Source of the DNA: Sipunculus nudus
Taxonomy: Eukaryota > Annelida > Sipuncula > Golfingiida > Sipunculidae
Length of the DNA: 64,000 nt
Assembly: GCA_026874595.1 (NCBI GenBank)
Contig: CM049313.1
Coordinates: 60,097,159-60,161,158, forward strand
Reading direction: 5' to 3'
In this document: in pieces, positions 34,707 through 60,869 of the stretch
Position numbering within the stretch: the stretch's first letter is position 1
Layout: the number at the start of each line of letters is the position of its first letter
Program-made: the position numbers and the translations under genes
The notes under the pieces: generated by a model
What the model was told of the DNA's origin: nothing
What the model saw: only the letters and a program-made list of their open reading frames with translations
Database searches by the model: none

Positions 34707-35033
34707 TTTGTATAGCAAGGTTTTCTGGGTCTTAACACCAGGGTGGGCACAGAGCAAAGAATTGTAATCAGACCAATGAGAGCTTGGTATCATATTTATG
34801 CATCCAGCACTAGATCTAAAAAAATATGACACCGAAACACCTGCTCTCGTAGGTCTGATTCTTGACCCTGTGCCAGAACTGGTGAAATCAGACCAACGAA
34901 TGCGGGTGCTGCATGTTTACTTTAAATTTTGGATTTGATGCACAATATGATACCACGCCGTCATTGGTATGATGACAATTCTTCTCTCCTAGCCCACCCT
35001 TGTGTTAAGACCCAGAGGACCTAGCTATACAAA
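34707..35033. mobile_element. Foldback inverted-repeat element (MITE-like)
   Basis: The left arm TTTGTATAGC...GGTCTTAACAC is matched by the right arm GTGTTAAGACC...GCTATACAAA. The match continues inward past 'ggtatcata', so each arm is about 130 bp and the whole 327 bp can fold on itself. No coding frame. Target duplication is unclear because the ends themselves are palindromic. Confidence 0.8.
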
Positions 35034-35867: not shown

Positions 35868-35926
35868 ACCAAGTGAAGAGAAAATAATACTGAGCAAAGG
35901 AAAGTTGCCTCAACATGTCGTGTACA
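35868..35926 (+). CDS. Exon 1 (start codon; mostly 5' UTR)
   Basis: The acceptor gcag falls at 35864 or gcagcag at 35867; the donor is gtgagt at 35927. ATG at 35915 gives MSCT and joins in frame with exon 2, while the other two frames hit stops across the junction. In-frame TAA/TGA codons lie just upstream of this ATG. Only 12 bases are coding. Confidence 0.65.
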
Positions 35927-38900
35927 GTGAGTGGGAATTTATCATTTGTACTTTTGTAGACATATATATATATAAATATGCATAGTTGATCATACATTTG
36001 TAAATATGTGTACATATAATATCAGCATAAAGTCATAACATATTTCACCATGAATGCTAACAGGGTCTTTTATTTTATTTCTTTGTCATTGTATGACTGA
36101 CACAAACATCAATAAAATGATACAATAAACTTACTATAGCTTCCACAAAATATAAAATAGAGAGACTTGTGAAAGGAAATTATTCTATTTTTTATGCTAA
36201 TTTATGCATAACATATTTTCTATGCATCAGTGTCACAGATTACAAGTTGGTTTAGATATGTATTACCTCATTATCAAGATGTCTGCTTTTTGTTTTTTCT
36301 GTGTTTACCCTTTCTTCAGTTGATTTTAGTATATTGAACATGTTCTTAGGAGACAATAAATATAATGTTGGTCTGATTTATACCTATGTTATCCTGGTCA
36401 GTATTGTTTTACCTGCTACAGTTAACTATTGTTATTGTTTTGCTCCTTGGCAGACCTTTATAGGGGTTGGATCTGTGGATGCGAGATGGAGGGAGAGTAT
36501 TTTCATCTCCCTGCCTCCGATGCCCTCTGAACACATGATAAAAGCAAGCAAACCTGTTGTAATGACAACTGCCTGCTCTCTGCTTGTTCCTAATGGACTC
36601 CTATACAAATGGCACATGGCAAAGCTGCGGCCTTACTCGCTAGTCCACCAGGTGAACTTACACATTATTGCTGGAGCATTAGCGCTTGACACACTCAGCA
36701 CACGACTGAAGGACCACTTCATGAATTTGGTAAGTTTGTTTTACATACTCTGTGTTTAAAAGAACAGATATGTTGAGAAATCATAGAATATTACCATTGT
36801 TAACAGCATTTTTCTGCATTCATACTTTTTCATAGTCAACTGTAAAAGTAGATGTTTTATGATAGGTCCTTTTTCTCCTGTCCATCACATAAAAATGATT
36901 CTGTTTTGTACGTCTCTCAGCTTAATATGTACATATTAAAGATCCTATTAAAAGAAGTAGATACTGTTATTGGTTCTGTCATGAAAATTGTATAGAAATA
37001 TTCCAACACCCCTGTTCACCTCATTTCTCGTGATATTTCTTTCAAGGAATGTTTGCCACTGTAAATTAGCTTTCTTCAAAGGAAGTAATGTAGCGATTTA
37101 TTATGATTTAAATAAGGCCATACTTATTTAAATTTTCGTTTCTCAGACCCGCCGACCCTAAGTTGTGACAATTTGGAAAATAAATATAACAGTTACCCTG
37201 TCTTTTTTTTTTTGCCGCCGTTATAAAATGTGTCCATGAGTCGTAATATAAATCCCCTAAAAATGTAAACTCGCAGTCACCTCCTACAAAATGCGACCCA
37301 CACGGCCGAGTCGGTCATTTTTAAGTCACAGCATTTGCCTTGCCTATGGTTAGTGAAACTTTTCCATTGTCTTATTCATGATCGTCTAAAATCTAGGGAT
37401 CTGCGGAGATAAAGATTTCCGTCGGAGATCTTCTGTAAGTCAAATCGTTCAAATGTTCTCTCACATTTCATCACGATCTTACCCGATATCAGTTTTATGT
37501 ATTAAACAGTGTTCTTCTTGTAATGATGGACCACTTTGGTTCGAAAACATTAAAGGTGCTGACTGTAATATATTATATCAGCAGGGATTGTAATATTTTC
37601 CACAAGGTGTCCGAAAATATCTGGCTTTTGAATGGTTCTTCCGAGCTCAGTTTCGGATGCAACTTCCACGCAGGGTCACGAACTATTGTAACATTCTTGA
37701 CATCGCGTGGAAAATCCTCTGTAGACAAGGAATCTTTAGGCCGAAGGCGGAAGAAAAGCCGACTTATTTAAATCTATTCGTTAAAATGCCTGCAAACATG
37801 TGACTACGAGGTTGTGATACGGAAATTCTGGATGAAATCAGCTATTTTCGGTAATTTGGATAACCGATCGCTGTGTGTATGCTTGTAGCATCGAATTTGT
37901 GAGCACTAGAATTGTTGCTCACGGACTATTTCCCGCCATAAAATTACTTGAATGAAACTAAATGTGCATGCATGTAGTATACTATGAATCTCTCGTTTGC
38001 TCTCTTTCTGGGGCTGCTGGGCGAGGTCTCTTTCTGCCAATCGCGCCGAAGCCCTGAAATACCGTCATATGCAAATAAACTCTTAACTCTCAATCAAATA
38101 CTCGCGCAATGGAAATGCTAAAAATAGCACTGGGCACCTGTGTGTTGTTTACAGAGTGGCCAATACCGTGTTATATAAAGCTACCAGGTTATACCGCTAT
38201 TTTAAGGGCTCCGAAGCGTTTATCAAGTGACAGATGTATGAACCTTGTTGCAAAACATTCTGAAATAATGTTCATCAGTATATACTTATGTTTGATATAT
38301 TTGTTTATATTAGCTTGATATTTTCCACCTTGCAGTTGTTAACATTTCTGTGGGGTAAAGTATTACCTCATTTGATATATTTGATTAAATTTCTGATAGG
38401 TATATTTTTACCATATTTGATATATAGTTTTTTTTTTTATTTTGTGTTTCTGACGTTTTTTTTCCAACGATTGACAACAGATAGATCATATCTTAAAGAT
38501 GATTTCATTGATATTTTAAATATAAAGGACTTTGCTTATTTTCTGACTGGGTGGCCCTGATGAATCTTGATATTGCTTAAATGTGCGTTTGTGTTTGAAT
38601 TGCATGTTTCATGGCTATTTTCATTTGCCTGAACTTTCCTTTATTTGTTGTAAGCTTTGTATATCCACTGACCATATAATGTCCTTCAAAATTAACAGTT
38701 AATTTTGCAACCAGTCTCCTGTACAGGTCAGCTGTTTTAGTAAGAAAGTGGAATGATTGGTTTTTCAAAAATGTTAATTGAGTGGAAATGATTATTTTAT
38801 TAATTGTTAATTTAAATTGATTTATTTATTGATTTTTTTTAAGTTTATTTAAAAAGTAGAAAAATCATGATTTTTTTTAAAGTTGATTTTTTACCAGCCC

Positions 38901-41900
38901 TTCCAGAAAGTATTGAGGATATCCTGCAGATACTGAAAATACTTTAGTGCACTTGACATTGAAGAAGGACACATATAGTTCCTATACATTCATTTTTATT
39001 TATTATTCATCATTATTTGAAAATTTATATGGAAAAAAAATTGCACTTTTCATCTTAAAAATTTTGAATTATATTTATTTTTATTTTCCCTCCTCCTCCC
39101 CACCACATTTCATTTCTTCATCCGAGAAACTATTTATTAAATATGTAAGGCCTAAGCATGAAATATATATATTTACTTTGCAATGCTGGGGTGGTGTAGA
39201 TGAGTCTGGAAAGAGTTGCAAAAATTATGGTATCAGTTCAATTGGGCATATCTGTTTATCCATGTAACGTAGGAGGGACGTATCTGTGATGTAACAAACA
39301 TGTGACATACAAAAACCACTGCGATGTCATCACTACAAATCATCAAGTAGTGTTATTTTAGTCCTCTTGTCTTAGGTTGTCACTCGTATGTCCCAAGACT
39401 GTACATCTGTCATAATTCTTTCTGAATTAAACATTAGGAATGCATACACAGGTAATTATTATTTTGCTTTTAAATAATCGCCACATTTGTCAGATTTGCC
39501 TCTGGGGTAAATAAGGGTAAGCTTTACTGCATTATATAAATTTATCACGAAAAATCAGGTAGACAGTGGTGCTGGAATGGAGTGTCTATAGTGAGTTGAA
39601 CAACTTAATGGAACAGGAATATGCTGATCAACTGAACTGGCAAGGGGAATGTTATGCCCTTATACAGCCTTAGGCTCTAATCTGAATTTAATTTTCTTCC
39701 ATTATTTTGTTACTAAGTCATATTTGTACACCTCTTATCAGTTGCTCATGATTTATACATATTATGTCATGTGGAATTTGCTTCTAGGTAAGGCTAGTAG
39801 GCCTTTGATAGTAATGATATATGAATGTACAGTTGTGATATGGTAATTGGGAACACAGGTAAAGAAAATTGGAACAGAGGCAAACGAGAAGCAAGGAGCA
39901 AATAAGGAGAAGTTCTTACAAGGTCATAGCATCGTAAATGTTGATGAGACAGAGGTCATTCCTGTAATCAGAGTTCAGAATGTCAGAGGTCAAGGCAAAC
40001 ACAAAAACCAGGAGGAGCCCAGCCCTCCCTCGGAGAAACCAGCAGGACAGAAGGTGGAGGCAGAAACACAGACAGATGAGGGGTAAGTGACGGCACTGTA
40101 GCAGCCTAGAATTTTACATGTTGTTAAAAAAGGAAGGGTTCTGTAAATCCTGGATGGCGATAAAAGTATGATTTCATTCTAGGTTCAGAGATTACCTTTG
40201 TATTCATAAATTGATTTGCATAATAGAATTTATCTTTAAAATATAATCAACCCTTATTTAAATCCAACCAGGGTTCTTATTATAAATTTAAGTGTTCATA
40301 ATCAAGAACATTAACTCCATTTGAAAAAGTAACAAGTACCACATAATCTCCAATCAAATTTTTTAGCATTCTGTGACAGTTAGCTGGTGCCTGATTTTTA
40401 TCATTGCCCTGGAAATGTTTAATGCCTCATTTGACAGGGATCGGAAACAATCATACATTGAAATAGAGAAAGGACTGTTTGATTAACTCACTTTTTATTA
40501 TGTTTATTTTTGTTTTGCTAGGATCCCTGAGACCGAGAAGGAGCTGTACAAGATGTGTGCCCAGGCTAACAGACGAGAGGAGTTGATGAGACGATGTACC
40601 ATCAAACTACAGGACGAGATCAGCAGCCTCAAACGACAGCTCAAGGATGCCATGAGTAATGCAGACCCACTAGAGAGCTTCATGGTAAATACTCAGTATA
40701 TTAACAAACTTCTAAGGCTGTAACAATTCACTGATGAACTGTTACTTTGTAGTTCAAAGTCAGCTTTTATATATTGTATATTTACACCATTATATGAGTC
40801 CAGGGGATTGGATGATTAACAGGAAAGTTTTGTATTTGGAGCCAATGCGTTTTATCTGATAGACCCATAGCCAAGATAACTACCACAGGGTCTACCTTGC
40901 TATATCAGAGACTCAGAGTCAATGTGTACAGTTCATGAGTAGAACTGGGGTGGAAGACTGTAGTAGACAAAATCTACTAAACTAGTTTCTGGTAAGAATT
41001 TCACAACCCACAAGGTATGAGCAAAATCCCAAGCATGGAAATGAAAACCAGGAAAGCAAACTTGTTTGGATGAGACTTGCATTAATTTATATCAGAACTG
41101 GTTGCTGTTTCATGTTTGTCTTGCATAATTCCAAGGCTTAATGGACCGCTCTTTTTAATGTATTACTGTATTGTTACAGGAGTTGTTCCAGGGAGGGAAG
41201 CCCCAGGATGATACCACACAACAGACACTGACCATCAAACTGAAGAAACTGAAGGCCCGGATCAGTGAACACACATGGTTCCTCAAGTCATACGGCCTGG
41301 AGCTGAGAAAGGTAGAGATGGTAACATTACCAGCGCACAACGTCATCACCGTCAACTGGGAGCACGGGGAGGCAGACAAGTTTATACATGACCTGCGCAA
41401 ACAGCTGGATGAGAAGGCCATAAGCAGTAATGGGTGAGTATTGTCATGTGTCACTTCAGGTAAAAAAGGTCTTCAGGTCTTTTATATATGGTGGCTTTAA
41501 CAAGTCTCAGTAATCAGTATACAAGTCCTACAGTCTTGTTGCCAGATTGTGAGTTCCTGGATCATATGAGATTTTAATAAAGGTATGCTCACTGCAGGTT
41601 CAATTGTTTCCTAATTTTGGGTTCTAAAAAGACTCATTCATATAGATTGAATTTCTATTGATGTGTAGTGCATTACTATCCTCTGCAAATTTTATATTAC
41701 TATTACTAGATAGAAATTAACATTAAAGTGAAAGCACTAGGGGGTTATTATTGGTGGGAAATGCTTTTACAGGTATTTCAAGAGTTATATCTGTTTATGA
41801 ACTCATTGAAGGCATTCATTGGAATGTGATACCATCAGCCTCAGTTATGGCATGGTTGGATCATGGATGTGTGTGATGTCATTGACAGGAATGTGGTGAC

Positions 41901-44900
41901 TTCAGCCTCAGTGAGAGCATGATGTTATGTATGTGTTGTCTTAGAAAGGATTGTGATACTGTCAGCCCCAGTGAAGGTATGGTGTAATGATTGTAAGGTC
42001 ATTGGCTTGTATGTGGTACCTTTAGCTTCAGTGCAGGCATGGCGTGATGTCATTGGCAGGAAATGTGTTGCCATCAGCCTCCTTTAAGGCATAGTGTGAT
42101 TCCATTGACAGGAAATGTGGTACCATCAGCCCCCTTTAAGGCATAGTGTATTGCCATTGACAGGAAATGTGGTACCATCAGCCTCCTTTAAGGCATGGCT
42201 TGATGTCATTGGCAGGAAATGAGTTGCCATCAGCCTCCTTTAAGGCATAGTGTGATGCCATTGACAGGAAATGTGGTACCATCAGCCCCCTTTAAGGCAT
42301 AGTGTAATGCCATTGACAGGAAGTGTGGTACCATCAGCCCCCTTTAAGGCATACTGTAATGCCATTGACAGAAAATGTGGTACCATCAGTCTCCTTTAAG
42401 GCGTAGTGTGATGCCATTGACAGGAAATGTGGTATCATCAGCCAACTTTAAGGCATAGTGTAATGTCATTGACAGGAAATGTGGTACCATCAGCCAACTT
42501 TAAGACATAGTGTGATGCAATTGACAGGAATGTGGTAATGTCAGCCTCCTTTAAGGCAAAGTGTGATTTCATTGACAGATAATGTGGTTCTGTCAGCTTC
42601 AGTAAAGGCATGGTGTGATGTTAATGATGTTACTGACAGCAATGTTGTACCATCAGCCTCAGTGAAGGCATGGTGTGATGTGTGTGATGTCATTGACAGG
42701 GAAAGTGGTACCATCAGCCTCCTTTAAGGCATAGTGTGATGCAGTTGACAGGAATGTGGTACCTTCAGCCTCCTTTAAGGCAAAGAGTGATGTCATTGAC
42801 AGATAATGTGGTTCTGTCAGCTTCAGTGAAAGCATGGTGTGATGTGTGTGATGTCATTGACAGGAATGTTGAACCATCAGCCTCAGTGAAGGCATGGTGT
42901 GATGTAAATGATGTTACTGACAGGAGTTGTTATATTATAGGCAGAAGTGAAGGCATGTTGTGACGTATATGATTTCATTGACAGGAACATGGTACCGTCA
43001 GCAACAGTGAAGGCTTGGAAGGAGAATGAGGAAGAACTCAAAGAAGGAGAGGTACAGCTAGAAAACGCTAACAAGAAACCCCTCGTCCTCGGCTTCAACA
43101 CTGCATCCAAGTTTGAACAGCTCAACGAAGATCAGAAACAACAGGTGTTTGAGGTAGGTCTTTCTATTGTGTAATATACTACATTTATATAGGAAATTCC
43201 TCTTTAGTTATGTTTTATTAATTTTTAGCTCAGCTGACTGTAAGCCGATCACCCTTTGTCCGTCATCCGTCTGTCTGTCAGTCCGTTAACCTGGCACAAT
43301 TCGTAACCACTGGACCTAGAAACTTGTTACTTGACATTCTGAGAGGTCCATGAAAAATCTCCTTGGAAACTAGAAATTAGGTCTCTGTTACCCATATCCT
43401 TCAAGCTATTGGGCCCCAAAGTACCCCCCAGAATAGTCAAAAATTTCATACAAAAACTTCAATATCTCATTAACTACATCACTGATGGTCATGATTTTTG
43501 AATACATATTGATCATGAGATGTTCCATCAGTTCCTGCAGACTGGTGGCGCCACCTGAATTTTTCAATTTTTTACGAATTGTTTTCTCTATTTTTGAGAC
43601 CTTTAAAAATGTGAACATTTGTTTACAGGGCACAAATCGTAAAGACTGGACCTAGAATCTTCATTCTTGACACACTGAGAGACCTATGAAAAGTCTCCAT
43701 GGAAACCAGAAATTATGTCTCTGTTATCCATATCCTTCAAGCTATGGGGCCCCAAAATAACCCCCCCCCCCCAGGAATAGTCAAAAATTTCATACAAAAA
43801 CTTCAATATCTCATTTACTACATCACTGATGGTCATGATTTTTGGCATACATATTGATCATGAGATGTTTCATCAGTTTCTGCAGACTGGTGGCGCCACC
43901 TGTATTTTTCGATTTTTATGTCCCCGCCACAAAGTGGCCGGGGCATATAGTTTTACCCATGTCCGTCATTCCGTCCTTCTGTCATTCCGAAATCAAACAG
44001 TTGTACGGACTTTTTTTTGCAATGCCTGCAGATATTGGCCTGATTTTTGGTGTGTGGCCAGATATTGACCAGTTACAGATTGAGTTCGCATTTCGTCCTG
44101 GTTGACCTACTTTTGACTGTTTAACGGCTCCTGAACATAGAAAATTTCATGTAAAACATAAATTTTCATGACAAATACACTTGTACAGACTTTTCTTCAC
44201 AATACCTGCAGATATTGGCCTGATTTTTGGTGTGTGGGCAGATAATGACCAGTTACAGATCAAGTTCACGTTTTGTCCCAGTTGACCTATTTTTGACCGT
44301 TTGACGGTGCTCTAACATAGAAAATTTCATTAAAAGGTGCATATGTATGGATTTTTTTTCGCAGTGCCTGCAGTTACGGGCCTGATTTTTGGTGTGTAGG
44401 CAGATAATGACCAGTTACAGATCGAGTTTGTGTATTCTCTCAGTTGACCTACTTTTGACCATTTGACTGCTCCTGAACGTAGAAAGTTTCATGAAAAATA
44501 TAAATTTTCATAACAAATGCATATGTACTGACTTTTTTTCCTCAATGCCTGCAGATACCACCCTGATTTTTTATGTGTGGGCACATAATGACAGTTACAG
44601 ATCGAGTTCGCGTTTCATCCCGGTTGACCTACTTTTGATTGTTTTACGGCTCCTAAACATAGAAAATTTCATGAAAGACAGAAATTTTTATGGAAAATGC
44701 ACATGTATGGACTTTTTTTCACAATGCCTGCATATACTGGCATGATTTTGGTGTGTTGCTTGATAATGACCCGTTACAGATCGAGTTTGCTTTTTGCCCT
44801 TGTTGACCTACTTTTGACCATACGACACCTACTGAACTTAAAAAAATTTTCAAAATTTTACAAATGTTTCTAATTTGCCCAAGGCGGGGGCATTCGTGTC

Positions 44901-47900
44901 GTTCCGACACATCTAGTTTACGAATTGTTTTCTCTATTTTTGAGACCCTTAAAAATATGAACATCTGTTAACTGGGCACAAGTCTTAAAGACTGGACAGA
45001 GAATCTTCATTCTTGACACACAGGGAGACCCATGAAAAGTCTCCATGGAAACTTGAAATTAGGTCTCTGTTACCCATATCCGATGAGCTATGGCACTCCA
45101 AAGTACAGCTCAGAATAATGGAAAATTAGATACAAAAGCTGAAGTATCTGAACAACTAATGCAGAGATCATCATAATTGTTTGCATGGATACTGATCATT
45201 GAGTGTTTCATCAGTTTCTGCAGACTGGTGGCACCATCTGTATTTGTTCGGGTTTTTTTACGAATTTTTTTCTCAATTTTTGAGACCTTCAAAGATATGA
45301 ATATCTGTTAACAGGGCACAAATCATAACAACTGGAATCTTCATTCTTGACACACAGGGAGACCCATGAAAAGTTGACATTGAAACCTGAAATTAGGTCT
45401 CTGTTACTCATATCCTTTAAGCTGTATGGCTCCAAAATACCCCCCCAGAATAATGAAAAATTTGATACAAAAACTGCAGTATCTCAATAACTACAACACT
45501 GATGTTCATGATTTTTGGCATACATATTGATCATGAGGTGTTCCATCAGTTTCTGCAGACTTGGTGCGCCTCCTCTATTTTTTTCAAATTTTTACGAATT
45601 TTTTTCTCTATTTTTTGAGACCTTAAAGATGTTATCTGTCAACAGGGTACAAATCGTAACAACTTGGACCTAGATTCTTCATTTTTGTAATGCAGGTAGA
45701 CCCATGAAAAGTGTCTGTGGAAACCTGAAATGAGGTCTCTGTTTCCCATATCCTTCAAGCTATAGGACTTCAAAGTATCCTTCAGAATAATGGAAAATTT
45801 TATACAAAAGCTAAAGTATCTGAACAACTAATGCAGAGATCACCATGATTCTTTGCATGGATATTGATTATGGAGTGGTTCATCAGTTTCTGCAGACTGG
45901 TGGTGCAACCTATATTTAATTCAATTTTTCGAATTTTTTTCTCTATTTTTTTAGACCTTTTAGGATTCTGTCATCTATTAACGAGGCACAAATTGTAACA
46001 ACTGGACCTAGAATTCATACTTGTCATGCAAGGAGACCGATGAAAAGTGTCTGTGGAAACCTGAAATTAGGTCTCTGTTACCCATATCCTTTAAGCTATA
46101 GGACTCAGAAGTATCCCTCAGAATAATGGAAAATTTGATACAAAAGCTGAAGTATCTAAACAACTAATGCAGAGATCACCATGATTCTTTGCATGGATAT
46201 TGACCATGTGTTTTTGAAGACTGGTGGAGCCACCTGTATTTTTTTATGCATTTTTTCTCTGTTTTTGAGATATATAAATACAGACACAATCTTGGCCTGT
46301 TGGTTTATCTGTTTGATGCTTCAGTTGAATGGGTATATACTACCATTCAGATGATAAAATTTTCTTTTGCGAATCTCTTCCCAGTCAGCTGAGCGTCATG
46401 ACCCATGGGTCACTTGTTTAGACATTTATCACTAATTATTGAAAGTGAATGATGGACTGATATTAGTTGTTATTATGAAAGAAAGGATAATTTTGTGTTC
46501 AACTGAGTTTTAAAGGAAGAAACACAGTTGCATTAAACCCACAGGAAACATTGTTTGAAACATGTTGATGCTAAACCTCCTTTGGAAGATTGAATATTTC
46601 AGACAAGAATTTGCAAAGCCAAACCTACTAATTAAATGTAAAGCTACAGATGTTTTACAGTGCAGCTGGATATTGGCATACGAGGGTAAAAAACAAGAAT
46701 AACTAGCAGTATATACCAGATGTGACATTGCATGAATATCCTTGTTTCCCCCAGACAAAGTTTGGGGATACTATTGTTTCATGACGGTCCAACAGCTGCC
46801 GCAGATAAGTTTTGTTTGCTCAATAACTCAAAATATATTTCACAGATCTTCACCAAACATAACATGTACATAGATTTGGGTTAAAAGGACGAAGCCTATT
46901 TAAAAAGGGGTAATGACCTTTACTAGGAGAGTGACATTGTCCTTGAATTGCCACCTATTATCCTTTTCTTGATTTCATGCCTTTTAACACCCCCATCATT
47001 GCCACTTGGCAGTACTGTGAGCATTATAAGTCAAAAACTAAAAGACGGATTTCTTTCATATTATGCATAAACATAGATATGGGTTATGGAATGAGGTATG
47101 TTTAAATTAGGGTATGACCTTTCCTAAGTGAGTGGCCTTGACCTTGAATATTCACATATCTGGTGAAAAATATTGTTTCCAAGTTGATTGATGTGTCTTT
47201 CTGAAAATCAAAATGAAAGACGTCAGATGGTAAATTGTTGAAAGGGACTAGTGACCTTCAAGGTCCCACCTGAAGAAACCCTGGTGGCTTGCCAAGAATT
47301 ATTATATGCTTCTTAAGATGGGAGGGGGGGGGGGGCCCTTTTTGAAGGGGGGATTAATTGTCTGGGGATACTATGGCATCTGTGATGCCAATCAATGTCT
47401 AGTTCTACAATGATTGTTAGATGAAAAAGTGCTTGAATATGTATGAAATGATTGTTTGATTAAACTTGCATGAATATCTGTATGCAATGATTGTTAGATT
47501 AAACTTTTCATGGATATCTATGTACAATGATTGTCATATTATTTTCAGTTGTTGCACATTCTGGATAAGTACGGGATCACTGGGGAGTGCTACCATGACC
47601 TTGTTATGACGGAGGTCGGGAAGAACCTGCCAAAATCCTACCTAATCAAGCAGGCTTACGCCTTCCTCAACAGTCGCTTCAAGATCAAGTTCACCCCGGG
47701 ACAGAATGCCGGGGCACAGCAGTCATTCACTGCTGTCCTGACAGAGGAAATCAAGGAGTACATCAAGGAAAATAAAACCTGCAAGAAAGTTGAGGTGAGT
47801 GTTTGATTGTATCAGGCAAAGAAGTTTGTTTAGAGAGTAAAATACCTATTTCACATGGCAAATGGAAACTGTTTTTAATCCACATTGAATCTGTTTTAGA

Positions 47901-50900
47901 CAATCACATGGCCATTAAACATGGATCAGATCTGTTTTCACCAAGCCATTTTCAATCAACATTTGAATATACCAGGTTTGCTATTTTTCAAAATAGTGCA
48001 TCACCCCTTCTACCATGTCATGTACAATAAAGTGTCATTACGACAAATGGTCTATCATGTCATCACCACGCATGGTCTACCATGTCATCACCACGCATGG
48101 TCTATCATGTCATCACTATGCATGGTCTACCATGTCATCACCATGCATGGTCTAGCATGTCATCACCATGCATGGTCTATTATGTAATCACCATGCATGG
48201 TCTATCATATCATCACCACATATGACCTATCATGTCATCACTATGTATGGTCTATCATGTCATCACCATGCATGGTCTGTTGTGTCATCACTCTGGATGC
48301 TCTATTGTGTCATCACCAAGCATGGTCTATTGTGTCATCACCACCATGGTTTATTGTGTCACACATGGTTAATCATGTCTTCACCACGCATGGTCTATCT
48401 TGTCATCACCACGCATGGTCTATCATGTCATCACTATGCATGGTCTACCATGTCATCACTATGCATGGTCTAGCATGTCATCACCATGCATGGTCTATTA
48501 TGTAATCACCACGCATGGTCTATCATGTGATCACCACACATGATCTATCATGTCATCACTATGCATGGTCTATCATGTCATCATCATGCATGGTCTATCA
48601 TGTCATCACAATGCATGGTCTGTTGTGTCATCACCACACATTGGTTATTGTGTCACAAATGGTTTATTTTGTCTTCACCATGCATGGCGTATCATGTCAT
48701 CAACAAGCATGGTCTATCATGTCATCACCATGCATGGTTTATTGTGTCACACATGGTTTGTTGTGTCTTCACCACGCATGGTGTATCATGTCATCACCAT
48801 GCATGGTCTATCATGTCATCACCACTCATGGTCTATTGTGTCATCACCATGCATGTTTTTTGTGTCGTCACCAGGCATAGTCTATTTTTTCATCACCACG
48901 CATAGTTTATAGTTTCATATGACTAAACCTTTTTGGTTTATATGCTATGTGAAAGACCAGCCTAGATCTGCAATCTGCATGGGCCAAAATGCTTTGGTGC
49001 AGTTGCCGAAGGAAAGGGGTATTAGACAGGTTACTGAAAACCTTGATTCTGTCTAGAATGTCTCCCAGGATTTAAATACCTTACCTCAACATTAGCTCTG
49101 AATTAAGTCAATAAAAGTCCTGAAATGTCCTTGTTGAAGACTTTATCCTCAGGCATCTTGAATAAAAGAAAAGAGATAGAGATGAAATATGCAAGCAAAC
49201 CTTTACCAGTTTCACATAGATGATTTTTGAAAAATGTAAATATTTGACTCATATAATCTCTATAAAGTGATTGTCTTTTTGTGCAAGTTTGTTTGATTTG
49301 TGATCTGCATTGGATTTCAAAGTATAAAAATAATTTTATTAAATAATAATTTTTATTGATATGTGCAAGGAAACATAATCCTTGAATGAACATCTGTGTA
49401 TAGATTGTAACTCCTGATAATTCACTTGTTTATTTCTTAAAAAAAAGACGACAGGAGAGAATTGGATTTCAGAGTAATTGAGTTTTCAATCACTTCCAGG
49501 TTAAAGTGGTTGGATATGGAACCCCTGTGTCCAGAAGCACCCACGTGGTCTTGTTAGGATTCACACTAATTGACAAAGTCAGGCCCATGATCTCAGCATC
49601 ATCAGGTAATTTTATTTATATTTATACATAAATGTAACAGTTAATCCATATTGCATATTGTGAGTACATGGTAATCCAAAGCATTAACAATGTATTATCT
49701 TCTGAGAAGTTAACATAATTGATCAGAATAATTAAGCCTGTGTTGACTGATTCATGGAGTCCTTCAAAATTATAAATCTTTTATATCATCTTGTGAGTTT
49801 TTAAAAAAAAATATGGATCAAAATCCTGACATTAGTGCATTAATTCTGGGAAAAATTAGTCAAATACTTCAGTTCATTACTGTGTTTATCAATGATGTTC
49901 TACATGTTCAGAGAACTTTGTCTTTTATGTTCATTGGTATTCATCCCTGCAATTTCCGAACAAGTCACACTCTACAATTAAACCAGATAATAAAAGAGTA
50001 CTTTTTCCAGTTATACAATAAGGAAAAATATTCCAGTCCATGTACAACCATATTTTAAATGGATCAGCAGTGTATTTCTCCTTCGCTGTTTCATATTTCA
50101 TTTGGGACTGATTGGTGTGTGCTCATCCTGTGACATCTTTTCTTGTACTATATGTGTAATACTTTGGTGATTTATTGGCCCCTGCTTCCTTGAAACAGGG
50201 GACATTGATTACGGTTTGTCTGTCTGTCCCTCTGGCTCTCTGTTTGTCTGTCCGTCAGGTTTTTTAGCTCAGCTGACTTTCAGTCATGCTTGGCTAAAGT
50301 GATGGGTCTTTGTACGTTGTCCTTCCGTCTGTCCATCAGCTGGCCGTCTGTCCATTAGCAGGGCACAAATCGTAACCATAGGGGCTAGGGTCATTAACCC
50401 TATGCAGTCTTAGAGGTTGTAAACAGATCTCCTTGCAAACCTGAAATGAGTTCACTGCGACATATATTCTCGAAATTTCCGGGTGTGTTTGCAACTTTGC
50501 ACCCCCAGAAATAATTCTTTAAGCCAAAATTTTCATCCAAAACTTTCCATCTTTCACATACAGCTCACCTACCAATAGGGGAAGAACCATAATTATTTTG
50601 AGATCACAAAGTCAAAGATCAAGGTCACAGGACCCACTTCTTCGAAAAGCCTTTAGATGAATTTTTAGCCAAACCTTTCATCCCAATTCTTTGATCTTTC
50701 ACATATAGCTCACCTGCTAAGTGGGAGAAAAATCCTATAGATTTTAAGGTCACAAGGTCAGAGGTCAGGGTCACAGGATCCACTTCTTTGAAAAGGTTGT
50801 GGACAAATTTCAAGCTAGACTTTTCATTCCAAAACTTCCAGCACTGATATGGCTTCTCTGTCAACAAGGGGGAAGACCTATTGATTTTGAGGTTAAAGGT

Positions 50901-53900: not shown

Positions 53901-56900
53901 TGATTTTTTATTGAATTTTCCTTGGATTTTTCAACTTTGGCCTTGTGAGCGGGATATCTCTAAAAAGATTCACAATAGGAATTTTATTTCTCTGGTGAAG
54001 ATGTATATCGACAAAAATCTCGTTCATGTTCGAAGATGGGTGACCTTGACCTACTTTTCAAGGTCACAGAGCTAATGATAGAAAAAAACTTAGAAGCTTA
54101 TTTTTCAGGAAGCATTTGGTGGATTGTTATGAATCATGGTACATACCTCTCCATTTTAAATTTATAACTGAGACATGTACAGATATACATCCATGTGAGA
54201 ACAGATATTTAGTACTTGTTACTGTTACCACCTCTAAACACTTCTTTTGGCTGAGGGCTTTTGTCAGCTTCTGCTGATATTCTAGTTACATATGCATATC
54301 TATAAATCTGATTGAGGGCCTGAACATGCCTTTTGAATTGTTTTGGACATTCATTACTTTAACATCCTTTGGAGAATTTGCCACAAGTTAGGTCTTAAAT
54401 TGGAGGATGTGTGATATCAAATGTCAGACTTGTTAGAAATCCATTATGTCTGCCAGCCACCTTTGAAATCCTTTTGTCAGTGCAGTTTCAGTGATTTTCT
54501 TCAATGTTTTGTCCCATTTAGAGAATGTTTGTTGTCTGATTTCAGACCTGTCAGATGTCCAATATGGCCACCAGGCAACCATCTTTAAATTCCTTCTGAT
54601 CATATTATCTCAAGAACTGTTTAAAAGAATGCAGTCGGATGTATATTAATGTAATCTTGCAAAGGATTGGGTCAAATATTTCTTAAAAAATATTACTATC
54701 ATTTATAAAAGTTCAGTACAGTTGGCTTGTGTTGAATAAAAATTCATACAGAAGCACCTGTTCTCAATAATTCTTGCATGGATTTCCTTGATTTTTGCTA
54801 TATATTTTGATCTTATATTTGGCCTGTGTGGTGTTCCTTTTGAGACTGACAGGTATCAAACAAGCTATGGAAATAGTTCCTGATAGCTCAACAATCATAC
54901 ATTTTCCTCAGACAATCAATTCACTGTGTTTTAACCAGACATTGGTGATATATATTTCTGTTATCATAGAAAATTTCAACAAATTGGCAAATAGGTTCTT
55001 CAAAGATTTGACTTGAAGTTGTGAATCTAAGCCAAAGATGTTGCAGGTCATGCTTGGCAGCTGAGCGTCATGACCAATGGGTCACTTGTGTTTCCATATG
55101 ATAACTTTCCTAAGAAATATCTGATTTCATTCATATTTGGGTCAGTGACTGCTCTTATGCATACCTTGGTTGGAATTGGTTTTTGAGTGTGACTCACAAG
55201 ATAATAAAGCAAAATGATATTTCATTTTTGATATGATGAATCAGCACATTTAGTTTCCTAACCACCAACATATGTGGCTAGCAGAGGACATAAATTCATT
55301 GAATTTGCTTGTTTCTTCAGGATTCCGTACTATTGCTGGCTTCAATGGGCCAGAGACATACCAGAACATTACAGAGGAGTTCACACAGGTCATTGAGGAG
55401 ATTAACAATGTTGTGAAGGCCGGCAAGATCAACATCGCTGGCAAAGATATAGAGGTGGAGATGTTCCTGAGTGGTGACTACAAGGTAAACTACCATATGA
55501 TCTCCATTGATAGCTGCAGCCTTAATTGAAAACTATACTTCTGAATTTTGTGCATGACTTTTTTTATGGAAGAGATATCAGAAAACCTTTTGTAAAGATA
55601 AACTTATAAACATTGTAATCACATGAACAGTTTGAACACTTTATTTCCTTTGTTAAAGTCTTTTAAAGTTTGATAAATATGAGTTATTTGGTTTCAGTTC
55701 CTAACCAGTGTGCTTGGCCTGAAGTCCAGTGAAAACTACTGCATCTACTGCAAGATGAATAAAGACCACAGGTTAGTGCAGACTGCACTTGCTCATTACA
55801 TACTGCGTTTTGTGGTGAAGGCAAGCTTAGAAATATCTTATTAACAATAAAAAACCAAGGAGCTTTGGCCTATTTGGTAATATCCTTGGCCAGGTGTTTA
55901 AAAGATATGTTTTGCTATAAGCAAAAAGAAGCTTTAGTCCATTTTTTAAATCTGTGCACATGCATATTGCTCTAAGCAAAAAGAGCACATAATAACATGC
56001 TTCAACTTGAATGAAACCATAGGTATTTTGAATTTTAAGGCAGTCTCAGTATAAAAGTCATCACATTCCTCTTTCACAATTGTTTTAAATTTAAGAATTT
56101 GTAAAAACTGAAAAAAAAATAATCATTATTCAGTGTATTTTATGAATTTTAAACTTACTCTCATTACAGATTCAAAGAAATCAATAAATTTTGTGTTTTT
56201 TTAGACAAGATGCCAGCAAACCAAAAGACCACTATACAGTCAGCGCCAGGAAGCGAACACTGGCTGATGCCAGGCAGCTCAGCAAAACAAATAAGTACGG
56301 CATGAAGCACCCACCTCTGCTAGACATCGAGTTTGATCATGTCCTGATCGACGACTTCTGTGTCCTGTCCCAGGTCATGGACATCCTGATCGATAATGTT
56401 ATCAACGACTGCATCTCATTGGATGAAGAGAGCAAGGAGAAGGACTCTGAGGAACACACGCAGAAGCTGGTCGAGGCCATCCACAAAGCCGGCATCGGAT
56501 TCTTCCAGGTGATTAATCCCATTGATATTATCTCGGAAAGAAATTTGCAAATCATATCTTTGTTAAGACTATAAATTTTTCTAGAATTACATTATTTACA
56601 AAATCATATCAAATATCCAGTAGGGGTAGGTTACTAAAGATTTGGGTACAGGTTTGGATTATAATGGGCATTCTTTGGTGCAATTTTGAATAATAATACA
56701 CTCATATTTGTATACATGTAAATAATATGGTTGATGGAACCTTACACCAGTCAGTATCAGAGAGGGAATTTTAAAGTAGCCCAGGAACAGTCATCAAGAG
56801 GATGCACTTTAAGAAATGCAGGTATGATCATACGCAAAATTCTGTTTGTGAAGATTCATGAGAGAATTATTGTTTATCATTTGTATAAACCTGCTAGCAC

Positions 56901-59900
56901 TGTAACTGATTGTGGGTGAGCTGACACACTGTTACAAACAGAGCAAAGCATCAGTAGATATAATTTCTTGTTACAGATATGGAAGGCTGGTGACAAATGG
57001 CAGTGGACAACCCCGCTTGCAGCGTCACAGAAGCGCACTCTGCTGGAGAAGCTACCTACATCCTTCCCAAAAGTCCTACGTCCAAAAACAGGGACAAAGG
57101 TTGCTCGATTGTGGAGGGTAAGAGCTGACCACTACTTGACTGATTCGCGAATTTTTTCTTTGGAACTGCATAGAAAGTGTGAAACCTCAAGAAAAATGAA
57201 TGTTCATTAAAGAATAACTGGAGATAACAATATATATCTTATGACAGGCTATGTTTCAAAAAGATATATGATGTTGCTAGCTTCCAAGACCAGATGGTTT
57301 ACTATATACTGTGATCTTTCTGATATTTCCCTGCTGTTTTTTTAAGCTCAGTTGACTGAAAGTCATCTGAGCTTTAGCGATCACCCTTTGTCCGTCATCA
57401 GGCAGTCTGTTAACCTCTGCATCCTTAAAATTTTTCCTCAGAAACCTACAATTAGGTCATTGTGACCGAGAACAAGTATATACAAATTACCAGATTTCTC
57501 AGTAAAGACTAAATGGCTTGTTATTTTATTTGGCGTGCTTATGGGTCTTAATGAAGTTAAGCTAATATGCATGAATGATGATGCCACCTACATTATCCTG
57601 CCTATGCAAGGACATATTGTCAACAGGTCAGTCTGCTGAGCGTCATGACCCATAGGTCACTTGTTATATTCAATTATGTTGAGCTAAGTATTATCTTGCA
57701 TGATTCTAAATGAGAGCGTTGAATGTATCAGAAACTCAGAATTAAATTTTATCAATGGTTTCTTCAGGTAGTATGCCTCAGAAGTTTTTTACTTCTTTTT
57801 CAGGAATTTAAGTTCATCATGGGAGCACTCTCCTCTGACAAGGTGACCGGCGATGAGCTTTATGATAAGGTAATTAACTGATAAAACAGATTTAATACTA
57901 ATTTATTCAGATTCATATGCAGTATTACATTTCATTCTATTTCATTGAGCAAATACTCTGTAAAATGTGCAGAAGCGTATTTTGCTTTACTGCAAAAATT
58001 GGTCAAGGACTTGCAAGGCAATAAGTTCAGACTGTCTACAAAGAGACGTAGAGAATTTAGAATAAACTTTAACATATCTAGAATTAAAGACCAAAATATG
58101 TCACTTGAGCTCACATGTCACTACTAATGACAAATGGAAACTTTGCAAATGAATTAATCTTTGTTAAAATGGAAGGCATGCATTGGTCAATTTTCTTGCT
58201 TAAGAAATTTATTATAAGTTTATTAATGCATGAATTGTTACTGGAGCTAAGTAAATACTTTTAATATCCTGCTTTTAAAATATGTAAGCAGTTACACTTA
58301 CTTTTAAGAATGAAAATAAATAACAACTGGATTGGTACATTTACATAGTTATCCTGTGTCTTAATGCTAAATGGTTGGTTTTAGAGGACAGATATCATAG
58401 ATAAATATAAATGCTCTTGATAACCATAATAAAAAACTTGCTTGAAGACAGCCTTTTGTCAAAATGGAAGACATGGGTCAGTTTTATAGTTTCAGCACTT
58501 AGTTTTAGCTATGAATACTTTATAAAGATTTTGACTTTAATAAAAAATATAATTCTGTAACAGATTACAAATTCAATTTCTCCTCATAGCTTTGATCAGT
58601 AATGCAAGGATGATATTAAATTTTGATGTGGGTATGTTCACCTGCTGTAGTGACTGAAATACTTAAAATGATTAAGGCCAAAAAAAATTAAAGGTATGGT
58701 TCTCAGGCACCGCCCGCATCAATTTTAAACCCCCGCATCAAAACTTTTTATTTTGATTTTCAACAAAAACTTTCCAATTTTGAGCTGCTGTCGCTCCCAT
58801 AATTCTTTCAAGAAGATAAAACCATACAATTTCCTTAGTTTTGTAGTGCTTTCACTTATTTAGCAAAAAGAAACTGTTATTTTCATGCTTTTCCCTTATC
58901 ATTTGACATTTTTTATCGAAACATACCAAAAAATTTAAAATAAAAAAAGCACCCGCCCGCATTGATTTCTGAAAAAAAGTGCCTGAGAACCATACCTTTT
59001 TTTTATTTTGGCCTAATAACTCAAATATATTAAACATTTCATGTCTTCAGAATTTGTTTCCAGTTACTCTTCCATAAAAGAAATGAAAATATATGATAAA
59101 TGGCAGTTACTGCATGGTAAACCTGTCTCAGAGCAATGGATGGCTGAGCATTTGTAGATACAATACTTGAATGTTACAAGACACATTTTTCATCTCTGCA
59201 GTCCAAGAAGTGGTTGGAGGAGTTTGTCAGCCTGGGTAAGGTGAACAAGTTGGAGGGCTATGAGCCAGACCGTGTGACCATGTACATGCACATGTTACCC
59301 TACCATCTGCCAATCTTCAAAGACAAGTATGGCAACCTGAAGCCATACACAGGGCATGGTCAGTTCCATTCTTATAACTTTATTGTTAGTACAGTGCAGA
59401 GTAAGGTTTGCAGTTGTCTGTTGTCCAAATGAGTTATAAAAAGGTATCTGAAATGATTAAACAGGAGCTGAAATATTTTTTATGAACATTTATCTAGATA
59501 TTGAAATAAAAATGAAATTATGAAAAGTTCTGAAGATTTTATGCAGTAATAGGCTCAGATTATTGATAGGAAAATGTTGTTGTTACTCATACTTTTGACT
59601 AGCTCGTGCCTCTGCAAAACAATGGTTATATACAAATTGTTGATAATGATTAAAACTTTGACCATGTTGACATATTATTGTATTATTTTAACAGGAGTTG
59701 AGGTGTCCAACAATGCTGTCAAGATGTCATTTTTCCGGCGCGGGAACAGGAATAACCCCATCACTGACATGATCCAGTGGGAGAACAGACAGTGGCTTAC
59801 AGAGGTATTGATGGGCAAACGTCGAAGCCTGATGAAGAGGGCAGCTAATGCAGTGTTTGGTTCACCCTCTTCGACCAGTACGCCAGCCAAACGAGTGTGT

Positions 59901-60869
59901 GTAGAAGAGAAGAAGCCAACTCCACCACCATCACTCACCATGGAAACCAGCATGGAGGAGGCACCATCGGAGACAACGCCAGCTGCAGCAGCTGATACAG
60001 AGGACACCCAGCCTCCAGTGTTAGAAGCAGCAACCTCAGACTCACAACCTCCTGAAGCGCCACCTGTGTTAGAGGCAGCTACCCCATCCACGTCTAGTCA
60101 GTCCACTCGTGCCACACGAGCATCTAGAAGAGCGACGTCATCATCCAGTAACGACGGACCCAAACCCTGGATTAAACTGGAGCCAGGCCAGGATAACAGC
60201 AGCAAGATGAAGCTTTTTAAGGAACTTGGTGCACCTGACTCTGATGAAGAGACACCAGTAGAGGCTGGTAAAGAAATCAGTGAGTATAGTTATTTCAGTG
60301 AGGGGCAGGAAAAAGATGAGGGTGGGAAGGAAGCGGAAGATAAATCTGTAGGGGAGAAGGTGGAAGAGGAGGCCCCACCTGGACCAGTCGTCGAGGCAAT
60401 GAACGCCGTTTTGTTTCCCTCAGAAACCTCAGGCATAGACACTGCTGACCTGCCTGCGGGTGATCAGCTGGCACAGGAGGAGGTTGCCATGGAAACCACC
60501 ACCACTGAAGTGTCTGAAGTACAAACGACAGAATCCAGCCAGCACAAAGGCACAGAGACCACACAAGCTCAGGAAACCATCAGCTCAGCTGCAGAGAACA
60601 CTGAAAACACTGTCCTATCACAGGACAGCGGGATACAGGACGCTCCCGCAGAAATGGATGTAGCTGCCATGGAAACAGCTGAAGTTCAAGAAGATGCTGT
60701 GGCTACAGTTGCAATGGAGGAAACCACAGAGACAGCTGCGGCAGAAGGTGAGGGAGAATCCAGTGCTGTTAATACAGACGCTGCAGATAAACAGAAGAGC
60801 CCGGGCAAGCTGACCCCTGACCCCAAACTTATCCTTAGTGGGCTTAAGAAAGTGTTTGCAAAGAAATGA
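35915..60869 (+). CDS. Transposase-derived (DDE/RNase H-type) nuclear protein, 15 coding exons, 1176 aa
   Basis: Fifteen exons with GT-AG borders join in one frame of 1176 codons plus stop. Layout: N-terminal part of unknown type (1-170); coiled coil (about 171-225); helical linker (226-366); transposase-like core (about 367-822); acidic low-complexity tail. In the core I see a Q-N-A-G-A-Q-Q-S segment, V-G-Y-G-T (Y454), F-N-G-P-E-x-Y, S-G-D-Y-K (D536), C-I-Y-C (553-556) and T-G-H-G-V-E (E788). From memory, this order matches a transposase-like family common in cnidarians and molluscs in which Y454 is an Asp (GDGT). The tail has basic clusters (GKRRSLMKR, 826-834) and IKLE (945-948), suggesting a nuclear protein. 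Loss of the first Asp and 14 introns suggest domestication. Substrate and role are unknown, and kinship to RAG1/Transib is only a possibility. Alternatively it is a decaying transposon gene, but no frame is broken. Confidence 0.85.
36454..36729 (+). CDS. Exon 2: N-terminal domain of unknown type
   Basis: The acceptor is ccttggcag and the donor is gtaagt. It has 92 codons, phase 0 both ends, starting TFIGVGSVDARWRESIFISL and ending LSTRLKDHFMNL. Composition and borders look coding. I do not recognise the domain. Confidence 0.8.
36730..39858 (+). other. Intron 2
   Basis: 3.1 kb. It contains a short hairpin (arms 37106-37116 and 37123-37133, ATTTAAATAAG) at the edge of a more CG-rich block (37140-38100) that might be an unrecognised mobile element. 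No exon is recognised; open frames at 37523-37771 and 38109-38560 have no splice support. Confidence 0.5.
39859..40082 (+). CDS. Exon 3: hydrophilic linker
   Basis: The acceptor is aacacag and the donor is gtaagt at 40083. It has 74 codons plus two bases. The text is charged and probably disordered (ending AGQKVEAETQTDEG). A proline/serine patch (EEPSPPSEKPAG) sits near the end. Confidence 0.85.
40083..41179 (+). other. Introns 3 (40083-40521) and 4 (40685-41179)
   Basis: Plain AT-rich introns on either side of exon 4. I see no repeat or regulatory motif in them. Confidence 0.7.
40522..40684 (+). CDS. Exon 4: coiled coil
   Basis: The acceptor is ttgctag and the donor is gtaaat. It completes the split Gly codon. 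The product begins GIPETEKELYKMCAQANRRE, carries LQDEISSLKRQLKDAM with heptad-like spacing, and ends ADPLESFM. A short dimerising coiled coil is likely. Confidence 0.88.
41180..41433 (+). CDS. Exon 5: helical region
   Basis: The acceptor is ttgttacag and the donor is gtgagt at 41434. It has 84 codons plus two bases and includes LKKLKARISEHTWFLKSYGL and ADKFIHDLRKQLDEKA. It is charged and mostly helical, with no named domain. Confidence 0.88.
41434..42984 (+). repeat. Intron 5: tandem array copied from the exon 6 splice junction
   Basis: From about 41815 to the exon border there are roughly 21 units of 50-66 bp. A typical unit is cattgacag + GAAATGTGGTACCATCAGCC + (t/a)C(A/C)(G/T)T(G/T)AAGGCATGGTGTGATG. 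The true junction is cattgacag + GAACATGGTACCGTCAGCAA + CAGTGAAGGCTTGG. Thus each unit repeats the acceptor and about 12 codons of exon 6. Two units near 42820-42900 even read SASVKAW, like SATVKAW in the exon. Confidence 0.9.
42985..43153 (+). CDS. Exon 6: start of transposase-like core
   Basis: The acceptor is cattgacag and the donor is gtaggt at 43154. It is 169 bp and completes the split Gly. It reads GNMVPSATVKAWKENEEEL and ends with NTASKFEQLNEDQKQQVFE. Its first 36 bases are the source of the upstream tandem array. Confidence 0.88.
43222..46417 (+). mobile_element. HINE-like element, family A (338-bp unit type)
   Basis: It starts TTTTTAGCTCAGCTGACTGT with GTCC/GTCT text and ends AGTCAGCTGAGCGTCATGAC, then CCATGGGTCACTTGT. 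It closely matches the outer copy at 5932-11457, including the last 180 bp, and so shows what that copy looked like before insertion. The GGTGGCGCCACC sites lie at 43544 and 43889. Later units are diverged. Confidence 0.8.
43918..44917 (+). mobile_element. HINE-like element, family V, nested in family A
   Basis: The 5' end ATGTCCCCGCCACAAAGTGG continues CCGGGGCATATAG. The 3' end has GGCGGGGGCATTC, the hairpin GTGTCGTTCCGACAC and ATCTAGT. It contains about five repeats of 170-175 bp with 'cctgcagatattggcctga', 'gttacagat' and 'ttgacctacttttga'. It splits the host element between 'cgattttt' and 'tacgaattg'. Confidence 0.78.
46746..47403 (+). mobile_element. HINE-like element, family F
   Basis: The 5' end TCCCCCAGACAAAGTTTGGG is followed by GATAC. 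The 3' end is GTCTGGGGATAC, the hairpin GGCATCTGTGATGCC, and AATCAATGTCTAGT. The interior contains 'gagtgaccttgaccttgaat'-type text. Non-coding. Confidence 0.72.
47549..47794 (+). CDS. Exon 7: transposase-like core, N-terminal part
   Basis: The acceptor is attttcag and the donor is gtgagt at 47795. It has 82 codons, phase 0 both ends, beginning LLHILDKYGITGECYHDL. KNLPKSYLIKQAYAFLNSRF and TPGQNAGAQQSFTAVL follow. In the related family I recall a similar N-T-P-N-G-x-x-G-V-Q-x-S segment just before the first catalytic strand. Confidence 0.9.
47795..49499 (+). other. Intron 7
   Basis: 1.7 kb, with a 25-bp minisatellite at about 48050-48912. The right part (48913-49499) is plain AT-rich intron. 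Confidence 0.8.
48050..48912. repeat. 25-bp minisatellite, about 34 units, with higher-order structure
   Basis: The unit is close to CATGGTCTATCATGTCATCA + CCACG. Variants TATCATG, TACCATG, TAGCATG and TATTGTG recur in the same order about 318 bp apart (for example 'tctagcatgtcatcaccatg' at 48151 and 48469), so blocks of about 13 units were themselves duplicated. Because 25 is not a multiple of three, all three + frames stay open; these open frames are not genes. Confidence 0.92.
49500..49605 (+). CDS. Exon 8: position of the first catalytic residue (Tyr instead of Asp)
   Basis: The acceptor is cacttccag and the donor is gtaatt. It has 35 codons plus one base: VKVVGYGTPVSRSTHVVLLG then FTLIDKVRPMISASS. 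The strand-turn pattern hydrophobic-x-G-x-G-T fits the first RNase H strand; codon TAT at 49515-49517 gives Tyr where related proteins, as I recall, have Asp (GAT is one base away). Confidence 0.88.
50177..50259 (+). mobile_element. HINE 5' fragment
   Basis: GGCCCCTGCTTCCTTGAAAC followed by AGGGG forms a hairpin, then GTCT/GTCC text. No matching 3' end was found; the family A-type element appears to cut it off. Confidence 0.45.
50747..50773 (+). promoter_or_regulatory. Cluster of nuclear-receptor half-sites (DR2, DR1, DR0)
   Basis: AGGTCA at 50747, AGGTCA at 50755, AGGTCA at 50762 and GGGTCA at 50768 are all in the same direction, with gaps of 2, 1 and 0 bases. This is the arrangement bound by RXR-type dimers. 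It lies within a mobile element in an intron; function is not shown. Confidence 0.4.
51282..52678. mobile_element. TA-flanked inverted-repeat element D
   Basis: It starts CCGTAAAATCTCCACATAAA + ACCGC and ends GCGGT + TTTAAGTGGAGATTTTACGG, with TA on both sides (51280-51281 and 52679-52680). The inverted repeat is about 25 bp with one mismatch. The 1.4-kb body is more CpG-rich than its host and has no transposase frame. TA flanks and CCGTA ends are shared with the elements at 285 and 4752, so a related transposase of the Tc1/mariner/pogo group is likely. Confidence 0.85.
53261..54286 (+). mobile_element. HINE-like element E
   Basis: The 5' end TAGCCCTCAGCCCCTAGACT is followed by GATGGGCT and GTCCGTCCGTCC. 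The 3' end is GGCTGAGGGCT, the small hairpin TCAGCTTCTGCTGA and TATTCTAGT. About three units of roughly 300 bp contain 'gagcgggatatct', 'gatgggtgaccttgacct' and GGTGGCGCCACC (53578; variant near 53878). Confidence 0.78.
55321..55484 (+). CDS. Exon 9: core, up to the second catalytic Asp
   Basis: The acceptor is tttcttcag and the donor is gtaaac. It completes the split Gly. It reads GFRTIAGFNGPETYQNITEE, continues with a helical stretch, and ends VEMFLSGDYK. D536 in SGDYK sits where the second catalytic Asp of this fold is expected. Confidence 0.9.
55698..55771 (+). CDS. Exon 10: zinc-type CxxC motif
   Basis: The acceptor is ggtttcag and the donor is gttagt. It has 24 codons plus two bases. 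It reads FLTSVLGLKSSENYCIYCKM and then NKDH. C553 and C556 form a CxxC pair directly after the GDYK strand, as in transposases with a zinc-binding insertion. Confidence 0.88.
55772..56976 (+). other. Introns 10 (55772-56204) and 11 (56509-56976)
   Basis: Short introns flanking exon 11 with no recognised content; the - strand open frame at 56337-56555 is a shadow of exon 11. Confidence 0.7.
56205..56508 (+). CDS. Exon 11: insertion domain of the core
   Basis: The acceptor is ttttttag and the donor is gtgatt. It is 304 bp. After RQDASKPKDHYTVSARKR it carries PPLLDIEFDHVLIDDFCVLS, then VMDILIDNVIND and an acidic stretch. The hydrophobic-acidic D-H-x-x-I-D-D block is the most conserved-looking part. 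Confidence 0.9.
56977..57117 (+). CDS. Exon 12
   Basis: The acceptor is cttgttacag and the donor is gtaaga at 57118. It has 47 codons, phase 0, starting IWKAGDKWQWTTPLAASQKR and ending GTKVARLWR. It is probably part of the helical insertion between the second Asp and the Glu. Confidence 0.9.
57337..57664 (+). mobile_element. Minimal HINE-like element, family A (about 330 bp)
   Basis: It starts TTTTTTTAAGCTCAGTTGAC with AGTCATCTGAGCT and ends GTCTGCTGAGCGTCATGACC, then CATAGGTCACTTGT. It lacks the tandem core, so it shows the ends that suffice for mobility or a deletion derivative. It lies in intron 12. Confidence 0.78.
57804..57869 (+). CDS. Exon 13
   Basis: The acceptor is tttttcag and the donor is gtaatt. 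It has 22 codons, phase 0: EFKFIMGALSSDKVTGDELY + DK. Short, but the frame and both borders agree with its neighbours. Confidence 0.85.
57870..59201 (+). other. Intron 13
   Basis: 1.3 kb. It is plain AT-rich sequence except for the inverted-repeat element at 58676-59013. Confidence 0.75.
58676..59013. mobile_element. MITE with TAA flanks (PIF/Harbinger-like)
   Basis: It starts GGCCAAAAAAAATTAAAGGT + ATGGTTCTCAGGCAC and ends with the complement GTGCCTGAGAACCATACC, then TTTTTTTTATTTTGGCC. TAA lies on both sides. It is 338 bp, inverted repeat about 35 bp, no coding frame. The three-base TAA duplication suggests the PIF/Harbinger group. Confidence 0.85.
59202..59358 (+). CDS. Exon 14: core, before the catalytic Glu
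   Basis: The acceptor is catctctgcag and the donor is gtcagt. It has 52 codons plus one base: SKKWLEEFVSLGKVNKLEGY, then YMHMLPYHLPIFKDKYGN and LKPYTGH. The Y-x-H-x-x-x-x-H-x-P segment followed by a Gly-rich turn leads to the Glu in the next exon. Confidence 0.9.
59359..59694 (+). other. Intron 14
   Basis: 336 bp, AT-rich, GT-AG. An open frame runs from 59574 into exon 15, but its first 40 codons are intron: the Gly split across 59358/59695 restores the conserved HGVE motif. Confidence 0.75.
59695..60869 (+). CDS. Exon 15: catalytic-type Glu and acidic low-complexity tail
   Basis: The acceptor is ttttaacag; TGA is at 60867-60869. It starts GVEVSNNAVKMSFFRRGN (E788) and IQWENRQWLTE, which close the core. 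After basic clusters (GKRRSLMKR; PAKRV) come about 300 residues rich in Ser, Thr, Glu, Ala and Pro with IKLEP (SUMO-type motif, I945). It ends LKKVFAKK. This exon is 1175 bp, far longer than the others, and carries the whole tail without an intron. Confidence 0.92.

Follow-up and report, generated by a model that had tools for sequence, protein, structure and literature searches.

The window analysed here is a 64,000-nucleotide stretch of the Sipunculus nudus genome (C8:60097159-60161158; assembly of 1.43 Gb in 153 contigs). On its forward strand lies a gene that spans 25 kb (35915-60869) and that we rebuilt from the sequence as 15 exons and 14 introns carrying one frame of 1176 codons plus a stop (Table 1). 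The frame opens with an ATG at 35915, the eighth codon before which is an in-frame TGA, and closes with a TGA at 60867-60869. An earlier sequence-only reading of this DNA had proposed the same 1176 codons and 14 introns; this part of it is borne out, and all 14 introns are bounded by GT...AG. The GC content of the exons is 49.8% (56.7% at third positions) versus 35.6% in the introns.

The first 171 residues gave no Pfam match, and residues 1-446 contain no Pfam zinc finger, their six cysteines being scattered. At the other end, the product carries a Ser/Thr/Glu-rich tail (residues about 842-1176). Matches of the product to Pfam EC042_2821 and DUF7652 and to NCBIfam Bud32 were all below the cut-off. 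Ten further open reading frames in the window, one of them in intron 8 and the other nine lying upstream of the gene, yielded a single Pfam line with an E-value of 0.16, and Rfam at gathering scores gave no match.

Table 1. Exons of the gene and residues of the transposase-like core, in window coordinates
Feature	Position	Strand	Residues or content
Exon 1	35915-35926	+	1-4 (coding part)
Exon 2	36454-36729	+	5-96; without known domain
Exon 3	39859-40082	+	97-171
Exon 4	40522-40684	+	171-225
Exon 5	41180-41433	+	226-310
Exon 6	42985-43153	+	310-366
Exon 7	47549-47794	+	367-448; directly ahead of the RNase H-like core
Exon 8	49500-49605	+	449-484; presumed first catalytic strand VKVVGYGT
Tyr454 codon (TAT)	49515-49517	+	GYGT 453-456; first catalytic Asp position by alignment
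Exon 9	55321-55484	+	484-538; holds D536
D536 (GAC)	55476-55478	+	SGDYK 534-538; second catalytic Asp
Exon 10	55698-55771	+	539-563; zinc C(2)C
C553/C556	exon 10	+	CIYC 553-556; C(2)C zinc pair
Exon 11	56205-56508	+	563-664; holds DHVLIDDFCV
F614-C615 (TTC TGT)	56356-56361	+	position of Chapaev LH motif / RAG1 H795
Exon 12	56977-57117	+	665-711
Exon 13	57804-57869	+	712-733
Exon 14	59202-59358	+	734-786; zinc H(4)H
H763	59289-59291	+	HMLPYH; H(4)H zinc pair with H768
H768	59304-59306	+	HMLPYH; H(4)H zinc pair with H763
Exon 15	59695-60869	+	786-1176; E788, core end, then Ser/Thr/Glu/Pro/Ala-rich tail
E788	59700-59702	+	HGVE 785-788; catalytic Glu

Several repeats accompany the gene. Intron 5 holds a tandem array (41817-42984, unit of 52-61 bp), 21 units of which are degenerate copies of the boundary between intron 5 and exon 6, including the acceptor and the first ~11 codons of exon 6. 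Several of these copies keep the exon 6 frame, and no such match was present in 49 of 50 shuffled controls; the copies are potential decoy splice acceptors. A 25-bp tandem array of ~35 copies occupies 48047-48910 in intron 7. Just upstream of the gene, at 34706-35034, lies an inverted repeat with 91-bp arms that are 147 bp apart, MITE-like by eye.

Relationship to Chapaev transposases and RAG1

A profile made from 8 of the 16 Chapaev copies of the same genome, representing three families and including one copy (L023) whose translated pieces were put together manually, was aligned by hhalign to residues 487-645 with a probability of 95.1, an E-value of 2.9e-8 and a score of 67.9. All 40 shuffled cores scored 22.1 or less, and the flanking parts of the product scored 13.0 (residues 1-366) and 15.7 (residues 842-1176). 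When L023 was divided into four pieces, two of them, D2 and C(2)C-to-DH, matched the core at scores reached by 0/500 shuffles each, and the D1 and E pieces alone were not significant (238/500 and 222/500); the same was true for the E region of another copy, L045, against the gene product (179/500). In Pfam, the match to DUF1280 is weak (E-value of 0.0061, 16.6 bits, below the cut-off of 25). PMC3985635 describes DUF1280 as the presumed Chapaev transposase and groups it with RAG1 in a single clade.

The end of the core resembles RAG1 directly. Residues 734-842 matched the RAG1 core end, i.e. its zinc-His/E962 module, with a score of 73 that none of 1000 shuffles reached, this region having been picked after the likeness was noticed. 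Pieces of open frames taken from 12 prokaryotic loci (451 in all) likewise never reached the score, the best having 57, and the H-5-H-20-E spacing of H763, H768 and E788 is identical in RAG1. Earlier parts of the core gave lesser values: 12/1000 shuffles reached the score of the whole core and 104/1000 that of its first half, 17 of the 451 control pieces reached that of the D708-CxxC module, and the stretch from the first Asp to CxxC and the whole core taken end to end were matched by 19/500 and 1/500 shuffles, respectively. A phmmer search against the PDB found no RAG1 chain, and none of the RAG1 family models in Pfam matched at E<=10, a range in which HMMER filtering removes most matches above 0.1. 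The catalytic residues of RAG1 are D600, D708 and E962, a numbering that agrees with the computed spacings; D536 stands at D708 and E788 at E962. The DDE-transposase ancestry put forward by the sequence-only reading is supported by the Chapaev profile match and by the shuffles of the RAG1 end module, and on these similarities the family is refined to Chapaev/CMC, in the RAG1 clade.

Six-frame searches of the whole genome separate the gene from its relatives. Of the 23 matches to the core (residues 447-820, 374 in all), 8 are exons of the gene itself and 15 lie elsewhere, with E-values from 0.0016 to 0.75; since the search scores the best candidates only, counts for large families are lower bounds. 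The 6 matches of residues 1-446 were all to the gene's own exons. Residues 1-820 are thus single copy in 1.43 Gb at this sensitivity, and this, together with the 14 introns, upholds the earlier view that the gene belongs to the host and is not a mobile copy. Both traits of a domesticated gene, single copy (over residues 1-820) and introns, are present in this one genome.

At least one Chapaev motif is visible in six frames in 14 of the 15 distant matches (L057 shows none). The 100 kb flanking on each side contain no paralogue; the one match (E-value of 0.017) is L023, a Chapaev-type transposase ~94 kb downstream of the window (L023:3780-8198, C8 about 60254938-60259356). It shows all six core motifs, in separate reading frames. 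It also carries a RING finger (PF13445, 29.6 bits, cut-off 25.2) and a region like the importin-binding region of RAG1, whose 22.6 bits (PF12560, E-value of 9.4e-5) fall just short of the cut-off of 23.3. According to an excerpt of PMC4411706, this layout is known for some Chapaevs. Loci L044-L056 belong to two or more multi-copy families of Chapaev whose open frames are long (676 codons in L045); active-site motifs are present in many copies and some copies are interrupted. Also downstream, at C8:60201159-60211158, are frames with thrombospondin-type CSVTCG repeats, ADAMTS-like by eye.

Outside this genome, peptide patterns found no relative in the viral_contigs or genome_contigs collections. 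A DNA pattern built from a presumed family consensus (TGG-AAR-TTY...TGY-NTN-TGG-TGY) had 0 hits in viral_contigs and 12 loci in genome_contigs, among which tblastn found no relative (best E-value of 0.71), and tblastn against phages found none.

Active-site and zinc-binding positions

The residues named by the sequence-only reading (Y454, D536, CIYC and E788) are all at the places it gave them in the rebuilt protein, and it had missed the HMLPYH pair, H763 and H768. The second catalytic Asp of Chapaev/CMC is kept as D536 (context FLSGDYKFL versus FLxGDYxFL), and so are the C(2)C motif and the H(4)H motif, the latter being present in 10 of the 16 Chapaev loci, which are all those where this part is visible. 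The catalytic Glu is kept as E788 by its alignment to RAG1 E962, direct alignment with the Chapaev Glu region being not significant. C(2)C, LH and H(4)H are listed as Chapaev motifs in the available part of PMC4079192.

At the first catalytic position, all 13 same-genome Chapaev loci that show the site, out of 16 examined, have Asp, in the context G-G-D-H-G-G, as counted with a search pattern that fixes the neighbours and leaves the Asp position free. Hhalign in global mode (E-value of 3.3e-6) and MAFFT E-INS-i, i.e. two of four multiple or profile methods, align VKVVGYGT of exon 8 to Chapaev LKIGGDHG and place Y454 on this Asp, whereas MAFFT L-INS-i and G-INS-i place it one column away, and the hhalign confidence digits at the Y454 column are low (1-3 of 9). 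In a pairwise grid anchored at D2 (60 settings per reference), the Asp fell on Y454 in 25, 7 and 7 settings for the three Chapaev families; T456 was commoner than Y454 for family B (27/60), and the other settings gave gaps or non-acidic residues. Acidic residues occupied the D1 column in 0 of these 180 alignments. A grid without the anchor slid off (Y454 in 2, 1 and 2 of 60), and the anchored one was used instead. RAG1 D600 fell on K445 in 39 of 60 anchored settings, on a gap in 17 and on E432 in 4, and never on Y454, so RAG1 by itself is too remote to fix the column.

Because both the strand and the glycine agree (VKVVGYG versus LKIGGDHG), Y454 is the natural match to the Chapaev Asp, and this assignment rests on the alignment of weakly similar sequence. 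The proposed change of the first Asp to Tyr is supported relative to the same-genome homologues; its exact column is reproduced by two of the four methods. The sequence-only reading had measured the change against G-D-G-T as the family form, and no such relative came up in any collection searched.

A second apparent change, missed previously, lies at F614-C615. In the hhalign alignment these residues stand opposite the Chapaev LH motif within an ungapped block. Of the 16 Chapaev loci examined, 13 show the position of this His, and all 13 have it (12 LH and 1 FH); the corresponding RAG1 residue, H795, is marked as an active-site residue in the excerpt of PMC7204232. An automatic alignment had offered H608, the His of FDH, as the H795 counterpart; it was dropped, as the Chapaev alignment shows DH and LH to be separate motifs. 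The Tyr454 codon TAT is a single base away from an Asp codon (GAT), and going from His to Cys at 615 takes two or more substitutions; the apparent loss of the active site thus does not depend on one base call. By alignment, the active site seems to be doubly changed, D to Y and H to C.

Proposed function and comparison with known systems

We consider it probable that the locus is a host gene derived from a Chapaev/CMC-type transposase, which has kept the zinc-stabilised fold, has lost two active-site residues and would now serve as a non-cutting DNA- or chromatin-associated factor. In DDE transposases, two Asp and one Glu hold the metal ions, and cutting is lost or crippled when the first Asp is replaced. 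The Y454/C615 protein, in which two of four active-site residues seem to be missing, would cut strands by the two-metal mechanism very weakly or not at all. The C2/H2 zinc pairs are expected to keep the fold standing, so that the protein could still bind DNA or partner proteins, and the Ser/Thr/Glu-rich tail would fit a chromatin or regulatory scaffold. A possible role, guessed from the class, is the restraint of the Chapaev copies that are still in the genome. We give a small chance to a more specific version: an old gene of the host, from the RAG1/Chapaev clade, whose product does not cut but binds DNA or has an architectural role, recognising Chapaev ends and holding the elements in check.

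The retention of D536 and E788 along with both zinc pairs could also mean that a domesticated protein still cuts or nicks DNA by means of D536 and E788 with other ligands. PGBD5 serves as a warning in this respect, as it is without three of four catalytic aspartates (PMC3902484) and yet is called an active endonuclease (PMC7204232), both according to excerpts of these papers. However, D1 and the active-site His are both apparently replaced here, and the D1 column met an acidic residue in none of the anchored Chapaev alignments and, against RAG1, solely in the four settings with E432. We consider continued cutting unlikely.

The Tyr itself might be a sequencing error, a rare allele or a misaligned position, with the first Asp intact. 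A one-base difference and a weak alignment at the column are in its favour, but C615 is a separate change, for which a His codon would have to be altered at two or more bases, and a second version of the gene was not found in the assembly, which makes this explanation quite unlikely. We regard as equally doubtful that the gene is an old transposon remnant which has no host role and is open by chance: tandem repeats in several introns are what such a remnant could show, but 1176 stop-free codons run across 15 exons that contrast with the introns in GC content, and the whole-genome searches, at their sensitivity, turned up no mobile sibling. Finally, homology to the Chapaev elements of this genome notwithstanding, it is extremely improbable that this gene encodes the working transposase of a mobile element, as it is single copy over residues 1-820, spans 25 kb with 14 introns and has two apparent active-site changes, and as, among 310 inverted repeat pairs in 30000-64000, not one of the 25 longest brackets it.

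In the famous example of RAG1, a host adopted an enzyme of the Chapaev clade for its cutting activity. If the host-gene reading with a disarmed active site is true, the present gene would be a second host gene from that clade, one in which the core is kept and two active-site residues are changed, and the fold would be useful without cutting. As the genome still carries Chapaev copies with their motifs in place, binding and repression are directly testable. If orthologues are conserved, the gene would represent an old and apparently undescribed family. A Chapaev-derived host gene was not among the matches listed in the literature search, with most subscription journals outside its coverage.

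The gene product shares with RAG1 and RAGL the zinc C2/H2 layout, the H-x4-H-x19-E spacing and the FRR and N context. It differs from them in that similarity is clear by shuffles only in the last module, the counterparts of D600 and H795 are replaced, and no RAG1 Pfam model matches. With the Chapaev transposases of the same genome (L023 and L044-L056) it has in common the order of the core, the D2 context FLxGDYxFL, C(2)C, DH, H(4)H and the Glu, whereas these still read Asp and His where the present product is altered, and they exist in many copies. L023 has the Chapa-like and RING regions ahead of its core, in contrast to residues 1-446 of the present product, in which Pfam shows no zinc finger. 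Chapaev3 transposases, as far as the excerpt of PMC4079192 describes them, have one or two exons, compared to 15 here.

The nearest precedents, as judged from excerpts of the respective papers, are PGBD5 and Imagin; disarmed domesticated transposases are thus already known. Imagin of malacostracan crustaceans is likewise multiexon and single-copy, and has lost its DDE triad while keeping a zinc finger (PMC12863088). Unlike the gene described here, known from one genome, it is derived from Ginger1, and its orthology and purifying selection have been reported (PMC12863088). PGBD5 derives from a different source, piggyBac, but it too is rich in introns, present as a single copy and altered in its catalytic residues (PMC3902484).
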